Assembly (NCBI RefSeq): GCF_023746535.1
Contig: NZ_CP098747.1
Span: 812,364-876,363, forward strand
Source: Sneathiella marina
Lineage (GTDB): Bacteria; Pseudomonadota; Alphaproteobacteria; Sneathiellales; Sneathiellaceae
Length of the DNA: 64,000 nt
Direction: 5' to 3'
In this document: positions 17,106 through 32,182 of the stretch, piece by piece
Numbering within the stretch: position 1 is the first letter of the stretch
Layout: each line of letters starts with the position of its first letter
Translations under genes and position numbers: made by a program
Notes under the pieces: generated by a model
The model's input: the letters and a program-made list of their open reading frames with translations, nothing else
Told to the model about the DNA's origin: nothing
Database searches by the model: none

Positions 17106-18308
17106 ATGATCTTCGAATATTCAGATAAAGTGAAAGAACTGCAGGAACGCGTCCAGTCCTTTATGGACGAACATGTGTATCCGAATGAGCATGTTTTCAA
17201 GGAACAGGTAGATCAAGGCGATCGGTGGGAACCCACACAGATCATTGAGGATCTGAAGATAAAGGCGAAGGATGCGGGTCTTTGGAATCTGTTTCTGCCG
17301 GAAAGTGATCGGGGTGCCGGATTGACTAATCTGGAATATGCGCCGCTATGTGAAATCATGGGCAGGGTAACTTTTGCTCCCGAGGTATTCAACTGCTCCG
17401 CGCCAGACACGGGTAATATGGAGGTCTTTGAGCGCTACGCCAATGAAGACCTTAAAGAGCGATGGTTGAAACCGTTGCTGAACGGCGAAATTCGCTCAGC
17501 CTTCGCCATGACAGAACCAGCTGTCGCATCCTCCGACGCGACCAATATTGAATCAGATATTACCCGCGACGGTGACGAATATGTCATTAACGGGACAAAA
17601 TGGTGGACATCCGGCGCTTGTGACCCACGCTGTAAAGTTCTCATTTTTATGGGTAAGACTGACAAGAATGCGTCGCTCTATACCCAACAATCCATGATCG
17701 TTGTGCCCATGGATACACCAGGTATTGATGTTAAGCGATTTCTGCCAGTGTTCGGATATGATGATGCGCCCCATGGGCATGCGGAAGTCGATTTTAAAGA
17801 TGTACGGGTTCCAGCAGATCATATTCTGCTCGGCGAAGGACGGGGATTTGAAATCGCACAAGGTCGCCTTGGCCCTGGCCGCATCCATCACTGCATGCGG
17901 CAGATTGGTGTCGCCGAACGGGCATTGGAAAAAATGTGTATCCGGGTGAAATCAAGGGTTGCCTTTGGCAAGCCTGTTGCAGAACAAACCGTCACACTTG
18001 AGCGAATTGCGGAATCCCGTGCCATGATTGAGCAGGCCCGTTTGCTTACACTGAAAGCGGCTTACATGATGGACACAGTCGGCAATAAAGCGGCCAAGGC
18101 GGAAATTGCCATGATCAAGGTCGTGGCCCCGAATATTACCGGTAAAATTGTCGATTGGGCGATACAGGCGCATGGCGGCGGCGGCGTGAGTGAGGACTTC
18201 GGTCTCGCCGAAGCCTATGCCCATTCTCGGACATTACGCCTGGCAGATGGACCTGATGAAGTGCATCGCAATCAGATTGGCCGGTTGGAGCTGAAAAAAT
18301 ACGATTGA
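17106..18308 (+). CDS. Acyl-CoA dehydrogenase of the ACAD10/11 (LvaC-like) group
   Basis: A 400-residue FAD-dependent acyl-CoA dehydrogenase. Landmarks are the flavin/substrate strand [15 protein letters not shown] (about 135-149), W-W-T-S-G-A near 168, an R-x-A-F-G-K-P segment near 281 and the C-terminal A-D-G-P-D-E-V-H (380-387). The last replaces the E-G-x-x-x-I of ordinary dehydrogenases and is characteristic of ACAD10/11-like enzymes. In that group a separate or fused APH-type kinase first phosphorylates a 4-hydroxyacyl-CoA, and the dehydrogenase domain then removes phosphate. Two APH-type kinases lie 2-4 kb away on the other strand, fitting this pairing. AAGGAA precedes the start and a strong terminator follows. 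Confidence 0.88.
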
Positions 18309-18714: not shown

Positions 18715-20043
18715 CTAGTCGAGTAGGATTTCCTCGAAAGGGTAATTGGTCATATTCTCAAAGCCATTTTCGGTAATGAGAACCTGTTCTTCCAGTTTTA
18801 CACCTTCCTTACCACCTTCAGCGCCTACATAAGCTTCAACGCATAGGACCATACCGTGTTCGCACGTATATTCAAAAGCGCCCTCATCATAGTCTTCAGG
18901 GTAGGCGATATGAGGCCATTCGTCACAAAGCCCAACGCCATGCATTTTGACTGAATATCGAGAAGACACATATTCCGGCGCCAGGAAATGGCCGCCATGA
19001 ACAATTTCCTTAAAGGGGACACCCGGCCCCAACAGTTTCATGTTTTCCTGAATATGTGTAAACGCGTGTGTATACAGCTTCTTCTGCTCATCGGTTGGCG
19101 AGCCGTCCCCCAGAAACCAGGTGCGTGATATATCTGAACACATGCCGAAACACCCAATCATGTCCGTATCAAATGCCAACAGCTCGTTGTTGCCGATAAC
19201 CCGTGGCCCACATTCCTGAAACCAGGGATTGCTACGCGGCCCGGATGCGAGAATACGGGTTTCGATCCATTCTCCGCCACGCCGGATATTTTCAGCTTGC
19301 AGAACCGCCCATACATCATTCTCGGTAAGGCCAGGTCGCGCCATGTTTTGCATTTCGTACATAGACATTTCACACGCATGAACGGCGCATTTTAGCGCCC
19401 TTATTTCTTCATCCTGCTTTACCGCCCGGGTTTTTTCTGTAACTTCTTCGCCCTCAAACACTTGTAGGCCCAATGCTTCGAGTGCGCGGAGTCCGTGAAT
19501 TTGTATTTTGTCGATGGCCAGGCGTCGGTTCCCAGGAGCGTGGGCGTGCATCAATTCATCAATTTCACCCGCAAATATTTTTGCGTAATGCTCGGTTTTA
19601 TCTCCCTTTACAAAATAAAAGAACGACGCACCGCCACGTGTTTCCCTGACCAGTGGGTTATACGCAGTCAGCAGATCCTCGTTTTTGAAATCCCAGATCA
19701 CCATATATCCGTCTGCGGAAACAAAACAGGCGCGAAACGGGTTATGGGCCGCCCATAACTGCATGTTTGTTGTATCGGAGGCAAATCGAACATTGAGTGG
19801 GTCGAAAAGCAAAATTCCACCGTAATCACGATCTCGCAATGCTTTTGCCAGACGCATTAGCCGCTGTTCGCGCATTCTGGGTAGGTTGGGAATTTCCAAA
19901 CCTGCTTCAGCCCATTCATCAAAAGCCAGCTTTGTTGGGCCTATTTCAACCCGATCATTGTCATCAGGCGTACCATCGGGTTTAAGGGGAGTGTCGCCTT
20001 TAGGTCCAATTTTTCGCGTATGAGAATACGTCTGTTGCGGCAT
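18715..20043 (-). CDS. dddP: DMSP lyase DddP (M24-fold)
   Basis: A 442-residue protein with the creatinase/aminopeptidase P (M24) fold, matching the DddP class that cleaves dimethylsulfoniopropionate to dimethyl sulfide plus acrylate. All six metal ligands are present in order: D292, D294 (F-D-T-D), D304 (S-D-I-S-R), H368 (M-H-G-V-G-L-C-D-E-W-P), E403 and E418. D374, in the C-D-E-W-P motif, corresponds to the proposed catalytic base of DddP. The N-terminal T-R-K-I ... D-R-V-E-I-G-P-T region is also DddP-like and absent from ordinary Xaa-Pro peptidases. ATG 20043 is set by GGGAGGAA 6 nt upstream. It is probably the last gene of purD-APH-APH-dddP. Cytoplasmic; no signal peptide. Confidence 0.85.
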   Translation of the reverse strand: MPQQTYSHTRKIGPKGDTPLKPDGTPDDNDRVEIGPTKLAFDEWAEAGLEIPNLPRMREQRLMRLAKALRDRDYGGILLFDPLNVRFASDTTNMQLWAAHNPFRACFVSADGYMVIWDFKNEDLLTAYNPLVRETRGGASFFYFVKGDKTEHYAKIFAGEIDELMHAHAPGNRRLAIDKIQIHGLRALEALGLQVFEGEEVTEKTRAVKQDEEIRALKCAVHACEMSMYEMQNMARPGLTENDVWAVLQAENIRRGGEWIETRILASGPRSNPWFQECGPRVIGNNELLAFDTDMIGCFGMCSDISRTWFLGDGSPTDEQKKLYTHAFTHIQENMKLLGPGVPFKEIVHGGHFLAPEYVSSRYSVKMHGVGLCDEWPHIAYPEDYDEGAFEYTCEHGMVLCVEAYVGAEGGKEGVKLEEQVLITENGFENMTNYPFEEILLD

Positions 20044-20146
20044 CGTCAATTCCTCCCGAGAAGTTGTGTCGATAACACCTCAAATTCCGGTAACATAATT
20101 GACGATAATCGCTAAATTTTACCTTGTTGGTCTTAAAGGCGACCAG

Positions 20147-21196
20147 TTATTGCCCGCTTTCGACCTGTTGCCAGCCGAGAGTTGCCAGCATATTTGCGAA
20201 AGTGGCATATTCATTGCCGACTTTCGAACTGGAATTCCCGTCAAGACCCCGTTTATAGACACCCTGGACAATTGCAGCTAAGCGAAAGAATGAAAAGGCT
20301 ACGTAAAATTCCCAGTTGTCGATACCCTCTCGTCCGGTCCGTCTGCAGTAAGCATCCACATAGGCTTTTTCTGTCGGAATGCCCGTGGCGGCAAATTCCA
20401 TGTTGACCAGTCCTCCACTTTTAGGATGGATGAAATGATAGGGGGCACAATTATACGCAAGGTCTGACAACGGGTGACCGAGTGTTGATAATTCCCAATC
20501 CAATATGGCCAATACCTCTGGTTTGGTTGGGTGCAGGATCATATTCTCCAACCGATAATCGCCGTGCACGACCGATGTTTCGTCGCTGGCAGGCAAATTC
20601 GCCGGCAACCAGTTGATAAGATTTTCCATCATCTCGAGATGATCTGTCTCGGAAGCACGATACTGTTTGCTCCAACGGCCGATCTGGCGTTCGAAATAGC
20701 TTCCTTTCTTGCCAAAGTCCGAAAGGCCTGCCGCATCAACGTCAACGGAATGCAATTGAGCCAGTGCGTCATTCATTGCATCATAGGTGGCCGCCCGTTC
20801 AGAGGGCGCCATGCCAGGTATCTCTGGAGAGCGAATTACCCGTCCTTCAATCTTCTCCATCACATAGAAGGCTGTACCAATTACTTCAGGGTCTTCACAT
20901 AAACAAAAAGTCCGGGGTACAGGAACATCAGTATTTTGCAATGCCGAGATGACTTTGTACTCACGATCCACAGCATGCGCCGATGGCAGCAAAACGCCGG
21001 GCGGTTTTTTGCGCATGACATAATCCTGATTTGGCGTTTGCAACAAGAAGGTTGGATTTGACTGACCGCCTTGAAACTGACTGATGGAAAGCGGACCTGA
21101 AAAACCGTCAACATTTTCTGTCAGATAATCGAATAAGGCGCCTTCGTTAAATTGATGCATCTCCCGAACGGGGATGATTTCCGTGCCATCGCTCAT
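20147..21196 (-). CDS. APH-fold phosphotransferase, probable hydroxyacyl-CoA kinase (copy 1)
   Basis: A 349-residue aminoglycoside-phosphotransferase-fold kinase. The catalytic loop is H211-G-D213-Y-R-L-E-N218 and the metal-binding motif is D233-W-E. The N-terminal lobe has F-x-G-G-Q-S-N-P-T-F (about 41-50) and the R-K-K-P-P-G segment typical of the acyl-CoA-linked APH group (ACAD10/11 kinase domain, LvaA). It is a paralogue of the adjacent upstream gene (46 bp apart), with the same motifs throughout. Antibiotic resistance is unlikely given the catabolic neighbourhood. The exact hydroxyacyl substrate is inferred only. dddP follows after 103 bp. Confidence 0.85.
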   Translation of the reverse strand: MSDGTEIIPVREMHQFNEGALFDYLTENVDGFSGPLSISQFQGGQSNPTFLLQTPNQDYVMRKKPPGVLLPSAHAVDREYKVISALQNTDVPVPRTFCLCEDPEVIGTAFYVMEKIEGRVIRSPEIPGMAPSERAATYDAMNDALAQLHSVDVDAAGLSDFGKKGSYFERQIGRWSKQYRASETDHLEMMENLINWLPANLPASDETSVVHGDYRLENMILHPTKPEVLAILDWELSTLGHPLSDLAYNCAPYHFIHPKSGGLVNMEFAATGIPTEKAYVDAYCRRTGREGIDNWEFYVAFSFFRLAAIVQGVYKRGLDGNSSSKVGNEYATFANMLATLGWQQVESGQ

Positions 21197-21242: not shown

Positions 21243-22313
21243 TCAAGCGTCCTTCATCATTTTTTCAACTTGTTCCCAGCCCCGTTCGGCAAGAGGCCTG
21301 ACCCGCACTGCGACGTCGGCGGCACTTTTGTTGGAAGCTGTACCGTCTTTAACACGTCCAACAATTCCCTGAAGAATTGCGGCGAGCCGGAACATGTTAT
21401 AGGCCGCATAAAAATCCCAATTTTCAATATTGTCCCGGCCGGTTCGTTGGCAGTAAGCCTCTACATATTGTTCCTCTGTCGGAATACCCAAGGCCGGTAA
21501 GTCGAGACCCTTCAGGCCGCGAAACAATTCCGGTTCCAGGCGCCATGTCATGCAGTGATAAGAAAAATCCGCCAAGGGATGGCCCAAAGTTGCAAGCTCC
21601 CAATCCAGAATTGCAATGACTTTATGAGTTTCCTTGTCCAGAACCGTATTATCAAGACGGTAATCGCCATGCACAATAGCAGTTTCCTCACCGGGAGGAA
21701 TATTCATTGGTAGCCAATCCATCAATTTATCCATGGCGTCGATCGTTTCGGTTTCCGATGCCCGGTATTGCTTGGTCCAGCGGCTGATCTGCCGCGCTAG
21801 ATATTCTGTAGGTTTGCCGAAGGTTTCAAGGCCAACAGATTTATAGTCAACCCTGTGCAATGCCGCCATGCTGGCGTTCATGCTGTCAAATACTGCAACC
21901 CGATTGGCTTTCGAGTAGCCGGGGAGAGCTGGATCCCATTCGATATCTCCGTCCATGAATTCCATGACATAAAACATCGTTCCTATGATGGACTCGTCTT
22001 CACACAAACAATAGGTTTTAGGCACCGGCGCAGCGGTATCGCTTAATGCCGTAATCACTCTGTATTCACGGTCCACTGCATGGGCGGAGGGAAGCAGTTT
22101 TCCCGGTGGTTTTCGCCGAAGGACGTATTTTTTCGACGGTGTTGTCAGCATATAGCTGGGATTGGATTGACCACCCTTGAATTGTGCAACCTCCAGCGGG
22201 CCGCGGAACCCGGCAATATTATTCTTTAAATATGCTTCCAGCACATCGACTTCAAATTTATGTCGTTCGCGGACTTCCATTGTGCCAGAAAACTGGCCTT
22301 CTTGTTCGGACAT
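21243..22313 (-). CDS. APH-fold phosphotransferase, probable hydroxyacyl-CoA kinase (copy 2)
   Basis: A 356-residue kinase closely related to the next gene downstream. It has F-K-G-G-Q-S-N-P-S-Y in the N-lobe, R-R-K-P-P-G-K-L-L-P-S-A-H near 66-78, catalytic H215-G-D217-Y-R-L-D-N222 and D237-W-E. The N-terminal tail is longer and the central acidic segment (M-D-G-D-I-E-W-D) differs, so the two copies probably differ in substrate range. It starts 18 bp after purD on the same strand, so it may be read from the purD promoter. Family precedent: kinase partners of ACAD10/11-type dehydrogenases. Confidence 0.85.
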   Translation of the reverse strand: MSEQEGQFSGTMEVRERHKFEVDVLEAYLKNNIAGFRGPLEVAQFKGGQSNPSYMLTTPSKKYVLRRKPPGKLLPSAHAVDREYRVITALSDTAAPVPKTYCLCEDESIIGTMFYVMEFMDGDIEWDPALPGYSKANRVAVFDSMNASMAALHRVDYKSVGLETFGKPTEYLARQISRWTKQYRASETETIDAMDKLMDWLPMNIPPGEETAIVHGDYRLDNTVLDKETHKVIAILDWELATLGHPLADFSYHCMTWRLEPELFRGLKGLDLPALGIPTEEQYVEAYCQRTGRDNIENWDFYAAYNMFRLAAILQGIVGRVKDGTASNKSAADVAVRVRPLAERGWEQVEKMMKDA

Positions 22314-22331: not shown

Positions 22332-23615
22332 TTATTGGTCCCGATTTTCTCGGTCTACAGCTCGCCAACCTATATCGGATCGGCAGAAACCTTGGGGCCA
22401 ATCAATTGATGTAACACCACTATACGCCTTTTCTTGTGCTTGTTTAATGGTTTTTCCCGTTGCTGTGATACCAAGCACACGCCCGCCGACGGCAAGTATC
22501 TTTTCAGCCTGTTTTTTCGTGCCTGCATGAAAGACTGTCACATCTTCAATACCGTTGGCCTCGGCCAATCCATTGATGACAGTATTTTTCTCGTAAGCTT
22601 CAGGATATCCCTCTGCTGCCATAACTACTGTAAGGGCTGCATCCTGCTTCCAGCTCAATCTAACATCTGGCAACTCTCCTGTTGCCGTTGCCATTAGCGC
22701 AGGGAGCAAATCACTGTCCAGCCGGGCACAAAGTACCTGGCATTCCGGGTCGCCAAATCGCACGTTGTACTCGATTAACCGAGGCCCGGTTTCCGTGATC
22801 ATAAGACCGGCATAGAGAACTCCCTTAAAGGGTGTATTTCGCAATTTCATTGCGTCAACCGTTGGCTTGATAATCTGGTCAATTGTTGCCTTTATCATTT
22901 CTTCCGTCATCACCGGAGCTGGCGAATAGGCGCCCATGCCACCAGTGTTGGGACCCGTATCGCCATCACCAACCGGTTTGTGGTCCTGCGCGGTGGCGAG
23001 AGGTAAAATATTTTCACCATCTGTTAGAACAAAAAAGCTGGCTTCTTCGCCGACCATAAATTCTTCGATAACAATTTCCGCTCCCGCGCCGCCGAAAAGC
23101 CCGTCAAAAATATCATCGATGGTAGCTGTTGCGACTTCCAGGGTCTGGGCAATAATCACGCCTTTACCAGCCGCCAATCCGTCAGCTTTTATAACAACGG
23201 GAAGGGGGCTGTCTGCAACATACTCCTTGGCGGCAGTGGCTTCGGTGAACCTGGCATAAGTTGCCGTTGGTATATCAAAATCTCGGCAGAGATCTTTCAT
23301 GAAGCCTTTGGATCCTTCCAAAGCGGCAGCCGCTGACGTCGGGCCGAACGACTTGATCCCGGCGTCGCTTAGCGCATCCACCAAACCAAGCACCAATGGT
23401 AGTTCTGGCCCAACAACAACGAAACCTATATCGTTGTCTTGACAGAAATTCAGTATCGCCGGGATATCGTCGACCGCCATCGGCACACATGTAGCGACCC
23501 CTTCGATTCCGCCATTTCCGGGCGCACAATAAAGTGTATCAATTAAGGGGGATTTGCTGAGAGACCAGCAAAGTGCGTGTTCACGGCCTCCTGAGCCGAT
23601 AACCAGTATATTCAT
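22332..23615 (-). CDS. purD: Phosphoribosylamine-glycine ligase
   Basis: An enzyme of about 427 residues for step 2 of purine synthesis, joining phosphoribosylamine and glycine with ATP in the cytoplasm. The N-terminal motif I-G-S-G-G-R-E-H-A-L, the ATP-grasp segment with K-A-D-G-L-A-A-G-K-G-V, and R-F-G-D-P-E-C-Q are all intact. The ATG at 23615 gives the normal N-terminus. An ATG four codons upstream (23627) is the alternative, and neither has a strong ribosome site. Divergent from xseA with a short shared promoter region (about 85 bp). Downstream kinase genes are spaced as in an operon. Confidence 0.95.
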   Translation of the reverse strand: MNILVIGSGGREHALCWSLSKSPLIDTLYCAPGNGGIEGVATCVPMAVDDIPAILNFCQDNDIGFVVVGPELPLVLGLVDALSDAGIKSFGPTSAAAALEGSKGFMKDLCRDFDIPTATYARFTEATAAKEYVADSPLPVVIKADGLAAGKGVIIAQTLEVATATIDDIFDGLFGGAGAEIVIEEFMVGEEASFFVLTDGENILPLATAQDHKPVGDGDTGPNTGGMGAYSPAPVMTEEMIKATIDQIIKPTVDAMKLRNTPFKGVLYAGLMITETGPRLIEYNVRFGDPECQVLCARLDSDLLPALMATATGELPDVRLSWKQDAALTVVMAAEGYPEAYEKNTVINGLAEANGIEDVTVFHAGTKKQAEKILAVGGRVLGITATGKTIKQAQEKAYSGVTSIDWPQGFCRSDIGWRAVDRENRDQ

Positions 23616-23712
23616 TTCATTCCGCATAAATTAGTATTTCACCGCACCCAATGGACGGTGTAGAGTTTGTAGCATAGCGCGCCGCGCAGCAAAATAACCT
23701 TATGGGCGAATA

Positions 23713-30527: not shown

Positions 30528-31298
30528 TCAGAAAACGCCAAAAGTTCCGTTTATTCCATCCCACAGTAATTTTCCACCGGTAACAAGCACCAATAAATAG
30601 GCAATTCTATAGAAGATGACCTCAGGAATTATTTTGTGCAGCTTTATTCCCAACCAGATTCCAAATGGCGCTAATGGTGCTAAGGCCAGTGAGGTCCCAA
30701 GATTTTCAGTCGAAAACTGACCGAGAAGACCATAGGGGACGAGCTTCGCGTAATTGATAATGAAAAAGAACCAGACAGATGTGCCGACGAAAAGCGTTTT
30801 ATCGATCTTCTGAGGGAGCATATAGAACTGAAGTGGTGGGCCGCCAGCATGAGATACAAAGCTGGTGAATCCTGAAATTGAACCCCAAAAGGATCCCTTA
30901 TAAAAATTCGCTTTCGTTTTATAATCTGCCGGTTTTTTTCTTAAATAGTGATTGAGCGTAAAAACAATACAGATAGCGCCCAGTAAAATTTTTATAAAAC
31001 TTGGGCTCAGGTGATTGAAGAGTAAAAACCCAATGAAAATTCCTACAATAGCTCCTGGAACAAGGTACCAGAGGTTGCGCCAATCCGCTCTTTTGCGATA
31101 GGCAAGTAATCCAAAGATATCCATAAAGCACAAAATAGGTAGAATAATAGCGGCGGCCTGCAGGGGGGGAATGATCAGAGCCATTAGGGGGACACCCAGA
31201 ATACCTAAGGAGCCGGCAAACCCTCCTTTCGAAATTCCAATCATTACAACCGCCGGTATGGCGATTAGATAAAATACGGGGTCTGAAATAAAGGTCAT
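30528..31298 (-). CDS. TauE/SafE (TSUP) family membrane transporter
   Basis: A 256-residue inner-membrane protein with about eight hydrophobic segments and the early family motif G-I-S-K-G-G-F-A-G near 22-30. TSUP proteins export sulfite, sulfoacetate or related anions, or act as permeases for small organic acids. The second repeat motif is less clear (G-F-T-S-F-V-S-H-A-G-G-P-P near 142-154, which is typical). There is no sulfonate-metabolism gene nearby, but the CysQ-like enzyme two genes downstream has a sulfur-assimilation theme, which weakly suggests a sulfur oxyanion. Substrate unknown. Confidence 0.88.
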   Translation of the reverse strand: MTFISDPVFYLIAIPAVVMIGISKGGFAGSLGILGVPLMALIIPPLQAAAIILPILCFMDIFGLLAYRKRADWRNLWYLVPGAIVGIFIGFLLFNHLSPSFIKILLGAICIVFTLNHYLRKKPADYKTKANFYKGSFWGSISGFTSFVSHAGGPPLQFYMLPQKIDKTLFVGTSVWFFFIINYAKLVPYGLLGQFSTENLGTSLALAPLAPFGIWLGIKLHKIIPEVIFYRIAYLLVLVTGGKLLWDGINGTFGVF

Positions 31299-31432: not shown

Positions 31433-32182
31433 ATGTCACGATTGATCGTTGCCTTTATTCTTACCGCGAGCATCAGCCTGATGGTTATGTCCAGTTATGC
31501 TGCGGAAAGCGTTTGGTCGTATAAAGGAGCCAACGGACCGGAGAAATGGTCGAGGCTCGGGCCAGATTTCCATGCCTGTGCAGGTAACCAACAGTCTCCT
31601 GTCGCGATACAATCTTCTAAAGCTTTCGCAGCAAATGTACCGGAGGTGTTTCTGGAGTTGGAGCAATTCAAACCAACAGTCACCAATGACGGTCATATGG
31701 TTTCTATCGAGCCACTGGGTACTGGTGGCAGTCTGCTCTATGGTGGCAAGACATATAAATTTGGAGAAATTCGTCTTCATCACGGGAGTGGCCACATTGT
31801 TGATGGCCGTCAATTCCCCCTAGAGGCGCGTTTTGTACATGCATCGGATGAGGGCGAGCTCTTTATTCTAGGTGTGCTGTTTCTTGAAGGGCCCGCCAAT
31901 AGCACGTTGCAATCCATATTGGATAATACGCCGTCTTCGAAAGGTCAGAAAACAGGAAACCAGATTATCGATCCGATGCAAATGATCCCAGTTGATAACC
32001 GGTTCTTCCGCTACAAAGGGTCGCTGACCATGCCGCCCTGTACAGAAAATGTAACCTGGCATCTGTACAAGCAAAGCCTGACCGCCTCTAAAGATCAGAT
32101 CGCCGCGTTGAGCAGGATTTATGAAAATAATCACCGGCCTGTGCAGCCACTCAATCGCCGATATATATTGCAGGAAAAATGA
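31433..32182 (+). CDS. Exported alpha-carbonic anhydrase homologue with degenerate zinc site
   Basis: A 249-residue protein with a signal peptide (A at about 22-24, M-S-S-Y-A-A) and the alpha-carbonic anhydrase fold: N-Q-Q-S-P-V near 52-57, G-S-L-T-M-P-P-C-T-E-N-V-T-W near 195-208. Of the three zinc histidines of the family, aligned around F-H-F-H and E-L-H, only one remains. The residues are R114 (for His94), H116 (for His96) and R133 (for His119). The gatekeeping T in L-T-x-P-P is kept. Normal zinc-hydroxide CO2 hydration is therefore unlikely. This resembles carbonic-anhydrase-related proteins (animal CARP VIII also has His94 to Arg). Probably a periplasmic binding or structural role. AAGGATATCTC precedes the start. 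Confidence 0.85.
   Translation: MSRLIVAFILTASISLMVMSSYAAESVWSYKGANGPEKWSRLGPDFHACAGNQQSPVAIQSSKAFAANVPEVFLELEQFKPTVTNDGHMVSIEPLGTGGSLLYGGKTYKFGEIRLHHGSGHIVDGRQFPLEARFVHASDEGELFILGVLFLEGPANSTLQSILDNTPSSKGQKTGNQIIDPMQMIPVDNRFFRYKGSLTMPPCTENVTWHLYKQSLTASKDQIAALSRIYENNHRPVQPLNRRYILQEK

Follow-up and report, generated by a model that had tools for sequence, protein, structure and literature searches.

A probable DddP-type DMSP lyase of Sneathiella and its place among the described DddP enzymes

The scheme described for DddP places the carboxylate of DMSP on the metals, with a Trp and a Tyr at the sulfonium and an Asp as the base of a beta-elimination, as far as the available text of the two reports goes (PMC5395565, PMC4108388). 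The residues of the Roseobacter denitrificans enzyme (RdDddP) are given in the accessible part of PMC4108388 as D295, D297, D307, H371, E406, and E421, with D377 as the base and Y366 as its partner, and a loop-helix appendix is described there ahead of the M24 N-domain. The DddP of Ruegeria lacuscaerulensis makes DMS and acrylate and had no measurable activity on valine-proline, according to the available sections of PMC5395565. Furthermore, cells of the SAR116 bacterium 'Candidatus Puniceispirillum marinum' IMCC1322 produce DMS from DMSP, their dddP mRNA increases with DMSP, and other kinds of DMSP lyase were not detected in the genome, as stated in the accessible portion of that report (PMC4304780).

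In this work, a DddP-type gene was analysed in Sneathiella, a marine genus that is not among the usual carriers of DddP. The window, meaning the whole stretch of 64,000 nt that was analysed, corresponds to C1:812364-876363 of the genome G000, which is a single contig of 4.07 Mb. An earlier note had placed a DddP-type lyase in the interval 18715-20043. This interval is filled exactly by one complete ORF of 442 aa, but the strand had to be corrected: the gene lies on the minus strand, and the plus strand of the interval, read in its frame, holds many stops. The G+C content of dddP (0.49) equals that of the window (0.492), so the composition shows no trace of recent foreign origin. In the scan near the gene, promoter-like sites were not in excess (8 vs 6.0 expected), and 10 terminator-like sites were counted vs 4.4 expected (sd 2.4), one of them 3' of dddP on the same strand at 18375-18346. 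The features of the locus are collected in Table 1.

Table 1. Features at the Sneathiella dddP locus, in window coordinates
Feature	Position	Strand	Remarks
dddP, very probable DddP-type DMSP lyase, 442 aa	18715..20043	-	ATG at 20043, stop TAG at 18715-18717; NF043017, PDB matches, tree
Probable ribosome-binding site GGGAGG	20052..20057	-	8 bases 5' of ATG; predicted from sequence
Putative metal ligands D292 and D294, codons	19162..19170	-	D295/D297 of RdDddP
Putative metal ligand D304, codon	19132..19134	-	D307 of RdDddP
Putative metal ligand H368, codon	18940..18942	-	H371 of RdDddP
Putative metal ligand E403, codon	18835..18837	-	E406 of RdDddP
Putative metal ligand E418, codon	18790..18792	-	E421 of RdDddP
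D374, proposed general base, codon	18922..18924	-	D377 in RdDddP; Asn in 4S01 chain
Y363, proposed active-site Tyr, codon	18955..18957	-	Y366 in RdDddP; Ala in 4S00 chain
W97, likely sulfonium-contacting Trp, codon	19753..19755	-	aligns with W95 (DddP numbering)
Acyl-CoA dehydrogenase	17106..18308	+	context; convergent neighbour, one boundary of the dddP site in the genus
APH-fold phosphotransferase	20147..21196	-	context; directly upstream of dddP, other boundary of the site
Second APH-fold phosphotransferase	21243..22313	-	context; purD (22332-23627) next upstream

Family assignment, active site, and tree position

The window protein scores 695 bits on the NCBIfam DddP equivalog NF043017 (cut-off 600; residues 4-440 of 442), and none of the 14 control genomes has a protein over this cut-off. 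In the PDB search, the four best distinct sequences were all DddP chains (4RZY, 4S00, 4S01, and 4B28) at about 55-59% identity, with E values from 1.3e-180 (4RZY, phmmer) to 3.1e-168. The next M24 protein after them, a proline dipeptidase in fifth place, had an E value of 1.2e-14. Chance likeness is therefore excluded by the phmmer match to 4RZY together with the score on the DddP model. We take the 4RZY, 4RZZ, 4S00, and 4S01 chains to be R. lacuscaerulensis DddP. With this enzyme (4RZY) the window protein has 58.7% identity over 436 columns and has in common the ligands, the Trp, Tyr, and Asp, and the N-terminal appendix; it differs in lacking a 5-residue stretch near residue 237 and in its host, which is Sneathiella and not a roseobacter. 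Compared with 4RZY, the DddP chains 4S01 and 4S00 differ at D374 (Asn) and Y363 (Ala), respectively. 4S01 is the DddP-acrylate structure in the available part of PMC10686828. With RdDddP (4B28) the identity is 54.5% over 435 columns, and the six ligands and the equivalents of Y366 and D377 are shared, as far as the accessible text of PMC4108388 names them; in the tree this enzyme falls in a clade separate from that of Sneathiella. The IMCC1322 DddP (L139) shares 53.5% identity, the nine active-site positions, and the long N-terminal form with the window protein, but has CDEY instead of CDEW and lies outside the clade of the window protein and Roseobacter. It reaches 571.8 bits on NF043017, so at least one probable true DddP, from a host that makes DMS, falls under the cut-off of 600.

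The numbering of the window protein equals that of RdDddP minus 3, and this offset is constant over the six ligands and both proposed catalytic residues. The six ligands listed in the earlier note (D292, D294, D304, H368, E403, and E418) were each found at the number given, as was D374. Its remark that their spacing is that of a known DddP agrees with the constant offset, the published reference numbers being from R. denitrificans and not from Ruegeria. The MHGVGLCDEWP block with the proposed catalytic Asp (D374) and the N-terminal HTRKI...RVEIGPT region are likewise present in the translation. The R-x-E-x-GPT motif of the latter is absent from the five M24 outgroup rows. By this motif, the window protein carries the N-terminal appendix ahead of the M24 N-domain. 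W97 is likely the conserved Trp at the sulfonium, which is unnumbered in the available text of PMC5395565, the assignment being ours.

The residue comparison across homologues (DISCRIMINATES) covers 61 ingroup rows. The six ligands are conserved in 61/61, Y363 in 60/61, W97 in 55/61, and D374 in 53/61. Among the 45 long-form rows, 41 have R-x-E-x-GPT in their first 70 residues, and none of the 16 other ingroup rows has it; HGVGLCDEWP is found in 28/61, which are exactly the rows of one tree clade. The complete metal site, offered earlier as evidence for DddP, is thus not diagnostic, since every ingroup row has it, the eight without D374 included. As proof of DddP the six ligands were rejected, because they also occur in two paralogs of the same genome that lack D374. 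They are necessary and not discriminating; D374, the HGVGLCDEWP block, and the N-terminal R-x-E-x-GPT discriminate better, so the weight rests on the Asp block and the N-terminus. A complete metal site by itself does not mark a protein as DddP, and this caution applies to the family in general. All nine checked active-site positions are kept in 9/9 Sneathiella orthologs, and at the residues checked the window protein is identical to the crystallised DddPs.

The two DddP-like paralogs lie at C1:2129054-2130244 (L020; 9046-10302 of L107) and C1:3185872-3187038 (L026; 11867-13123 of L106), and both have all six ligands and belong to a clade without D374. They differ from the window protein by their low identity (36.9 and 34.7%, respectively), by D374->N with Y363->C in L020 and D374->G with W97->F in L026, and by the missing R-x-E-x-GPT region; with 327.5 and 317.5 bits on NF043017, both are far below the DddP cut-off. 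Eight short homologs of the 61-row ingroup retain D374, Y363, and W97. Two plasmid-borne short homologs, L165 and L166, are annotated just as Xaa-Pro peptidase and have the six ligands, W97, Y363, and D374. L165 adjoins a BCCT transporter gene, and L166 adjoins trimethylamine methyltransferase-type and sarcosine oxidase-type genes, neighbours which hint at onium compounds as substrates. Genes annotated as dddP, with 56-57% identity, also occur on plasmids of Paracoccus yeei that came from skin, urine, and eye samples of humans, including L163 (NZ_CP024423.1); the genes close to the one in L163 encode an alcohol dehydrogenase, a mandelate racemase-like protein, and a DMT transporter.

The protein tree contains 66 rows: the window protein, 8 Sneathiella orthologs, 8 named loci, 5 plasmid records, and 2 PDB chains; the other 42 rows include the 5 of the M24 outgroup. 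L028 and L029, which are copies of L001 and L004, were omitted, and fungal DddPs were not included. Long branches were flagged, mostly among the outgroup rows, and the placement of the flagged rows is unsure. The Sneathiella proteins (n=9) form a single clade with support of 100/99. Next to them stands the Roseobacter-side clade of 18 rows, in which both crystallised DddPs are found; this sister fork is not fully supported (96/75). Together with L136, the two make up the 28-row clade (100/99). L139, taken as the IMCC1322 DddP, is outside it, and the smallest sets that join them have 37 rows (86/61) and 38 rows (95/92). The window protein is thus placed between two evidenced DddPs, the R. lacuscaerulensis enzyme and, at the cell level, that of IMCC1322. 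The check put forward with the earlier note was an M24 tree, in which a position among the peptidases, or outside the clade of functional DddPs, would have spoken against DddP. Neither occurred, and the window protein lies inside the long-form DddP clade. L130 (G323:C46), from a genome with the same family code as IMCC1322, is a Roseobacter-type DddP (866.6 bits) inside the Roseobacter-side clade, a placement suggestive of lateral transfer or of misbinning.

Alternative readings of the protein

The window gene very probably encodes a true DMSP lyase of the DddP family in a Sneathiella species. This identity, proposed in the earlier note, is supported by the curated model, the closest structures, the residue comparison, and the tree, which all agree. 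The Km of DddP enzymes for DMSP, millimolar in the available text of PMC5395565, was counted against it. The protein could instead be a DddP-fold beta-eliminating lyase with a main substrate other than DMSP, for example DMSOP, which would be cleaved to DMSO and acrylate, with DMS release being secondary. DddP enzymes also cleave DMSOP, and the R. nubinhibens DddP slightly prefers it in E. coli, according to the accessible part of PMC10686828; moreover, the genes scanned around dddP include no DMSP-specific one. However, most DddPs preferred DMSP in E. coli in the same part of that report, where DddP is also listed among the enzymes that are 3-13.3-fold more efficient on DMSP (PMC10686828), and the checked active-site residues are the same as in the crystallised enzymes, so we consider a preference of this kind very unlikely.

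It is extremely improbable that the protein is an M24 peptidase of the Xaa-Pro dipeptidase or aminopeptidase P-like type that merely resembles DddP. Pfam reports just Peptidase_M24 for it, and its metal site follows the M24 pattern except for Asp297, which is not conserved with the methionine aminopeptidases in the available text of PMC4108388. On the other hand, the best peptidase model of NCBIfam, a dipeptidase model that comes next after DddP, gives 47.6 bits (cut-off 630), so the protein is not assigned to a peptidase equivalog. D374, Y363, W97, and the N-terminal motif are missing from the five rows of the M24 outgroup, whose alignment is poor, and the tree splits these rows from the ingroup at 99/99, on long branches. 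A DddP relic with an intact sequence and a lost use or activity would fit the occurrence of dddP in only some genomes of the genus (9/24) and the remnant of 41 C-terminal residues which another genome, G002, has at this site. This reading is hardly credible, because the window copy is intact, the nine active-site positions are kept in the nine orthologs, and dN/dS is about 0.05 in the unsaturated ortholog pairs, those with the window copy being saturated.

Distribution in Sneathiella and the chromosomal site

DddP over the cut-off was found in 9 of the 24 Sneathiella genomes, and among the 40 relatives searched these nine were the only genomes over the cut-off. When 385 genomes drawn more widely from the class were searched, 78 had a match with E<=1e-60 and 13 were over the cut-off, two of them Sneathiella. 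In 8/9 carriers, the gene has the acyl-CoA dehydrogenase gene on one side and the kinase gene on the other, and in the ninth (G008) the contig holds the dehydrogenase side only. Among the 15 non-carriers, the dehydrogenase-kinase gap is just 400-510 bases in nine. G002 has a gap of 692 bases which holds a 41-residue C-terminal remnant of dddP (G002:C39:3495-3620, L122). As for the others, the gap is 3.3 kb in G004, the kinase match is partial in G009 and missing in G017, and the two genes are on separate contigs in G015 and G023. By tblastn in the gaps of G002, G013, G012, and G004, dddP was detected in G002 alone; a 13-residue match in G012 (E 0.19) was taken as chance.

The flank tree covers 23/24 genomes, G017 being left out, and places G008 and G009 by the dehydrogenase alone, without the kinase. 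Every dddP carrier and the genome with the remnant fall in one 13-row clade (100/100), along with three non-carriers. At least 2 changes of gain or loss are needed on this tree if the remnant is counted as absent, and their direction is not distinguishable from it. The G002 remnant is a loss of dddP in one Sneathiella genome, and it is the sole support for loss over gain. Seven ortholog pairs were tried for dN/dS. dS is saturated in all three pairs that contain the window gene, and the remaining four, where dS is not saturated, have a dN/dS of 0.045-0.067. We hypothesize, as an unlikely extension, that dddP in Sneathiella is a presence/absence trait, a single-gene cassette gained or lost at one fixed site between the dehydrogenase and kinase genes, that the enzymes have perhaps shifted their substrate preference (e.g. 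to DMSOP) relative to Roseobacter, and that the D374-less paralogs serve a third reaction with the same metal site.

DMSP pathway context and significance

The scanned neighbours of dddP include no DMSP-specific gene or regulator and appear to belong to general metabolism. A DMSP operon of dddP and the APH kinase genes was considered and dropped, because the dehydrogenase and kinase genes also occur in genomes without dddP. The APH kinases are not claimed as drug resistance genes, their scores on drug-phosphotransferase models being at most 46.2 bits where the cut-offs are at least 205. About 10-12 kb from dddP, the window also contains genes for a TauE/SafE-type sulfite exporter (30528-31298) and a eukaryotic-type carbonic anhydrase (31433-32182).

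As a genuine DddP, the window protein would form a homodimer with the M24 'pita-bread' fold, by homology, and would bear an iron-type binuclear centre on D292, D294, D304, H368, E403, and E418; both are expected from the identity of about 55-59% to solved DddPs. The metals would bind the carboxylate of DMSP, the sulfonium end would be held by W97 and Y363, and D374 would take the alpha proton. The following beta-elimination would then give DMS and acrylate. The acrylate may be converted via acryloyl-CoA by the AcuI reductase, whose gene lies in another part of the genome. The metals, the chemistry and substrate of the enzyme, and its use by the cell, as well as the DMS release from DMSP, are thus predicted from the sequence. 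AcuI is assigned to C1:3183025-3183990 (NF051456, 461.8 bits vs cut-off 440). Proteins of the AcuI/YhdH family that exceed the TIGR02823 cut-off were present in 24/24 Sneathiella genomes, with or without dddP, so AcuI is no specific partner. A cluster of acuI with a DddP-like paralog was rejected as a pathway, since the distance between acuI and the paralog at C1:3185872, about 1.9 kb here, is about 236 kb in G005, the one other genome compared. The best PrpE-like protein (700.7 bits) is below the cut-off of 827.4.

A gene for a putative DMSP demethylase (DmdA) lies some 76 kb from dddP (C1:908197-909276), and its product scores 498.8 bits on NF009133 (cut-off 410). Among solved structures, the 3TFH series, presumably DmdA, matches it best with 392 bits, the next match having 113. 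DmdA over the cut-off was found in 4/24 Sneathiella genomes, and together with DddP only in G000 and G022. The cupin DMSP lyase (PF16867) was found in 0/24, and the control genomes likewise had none over the cut-off. BCCT-type transporters occur in 18/24; in the genome of the window there are two pieces that report the same open-frame length.

In a literature search that most subscription journals lay outside of, no paper mentioned Sneathiella and dddP together, and the papers that mention Sneathiella and DMSP assign this genus no DMSP function in their available text. Public Sneathiella genomes are likely already auto-annotated with DddP, and with the limited scope of the search we therefore do not claim the first notice. 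The window protein is an ordinary further member of the known DddP family in a little-noticed host, and the novelty is mainly this host. Sneathiella thus joins the probable DMS producers. Moreover, DddP and DmdA in one genome could show the choice between demethylation and cleavage of DMSP outside the roseobacters and SAR116.
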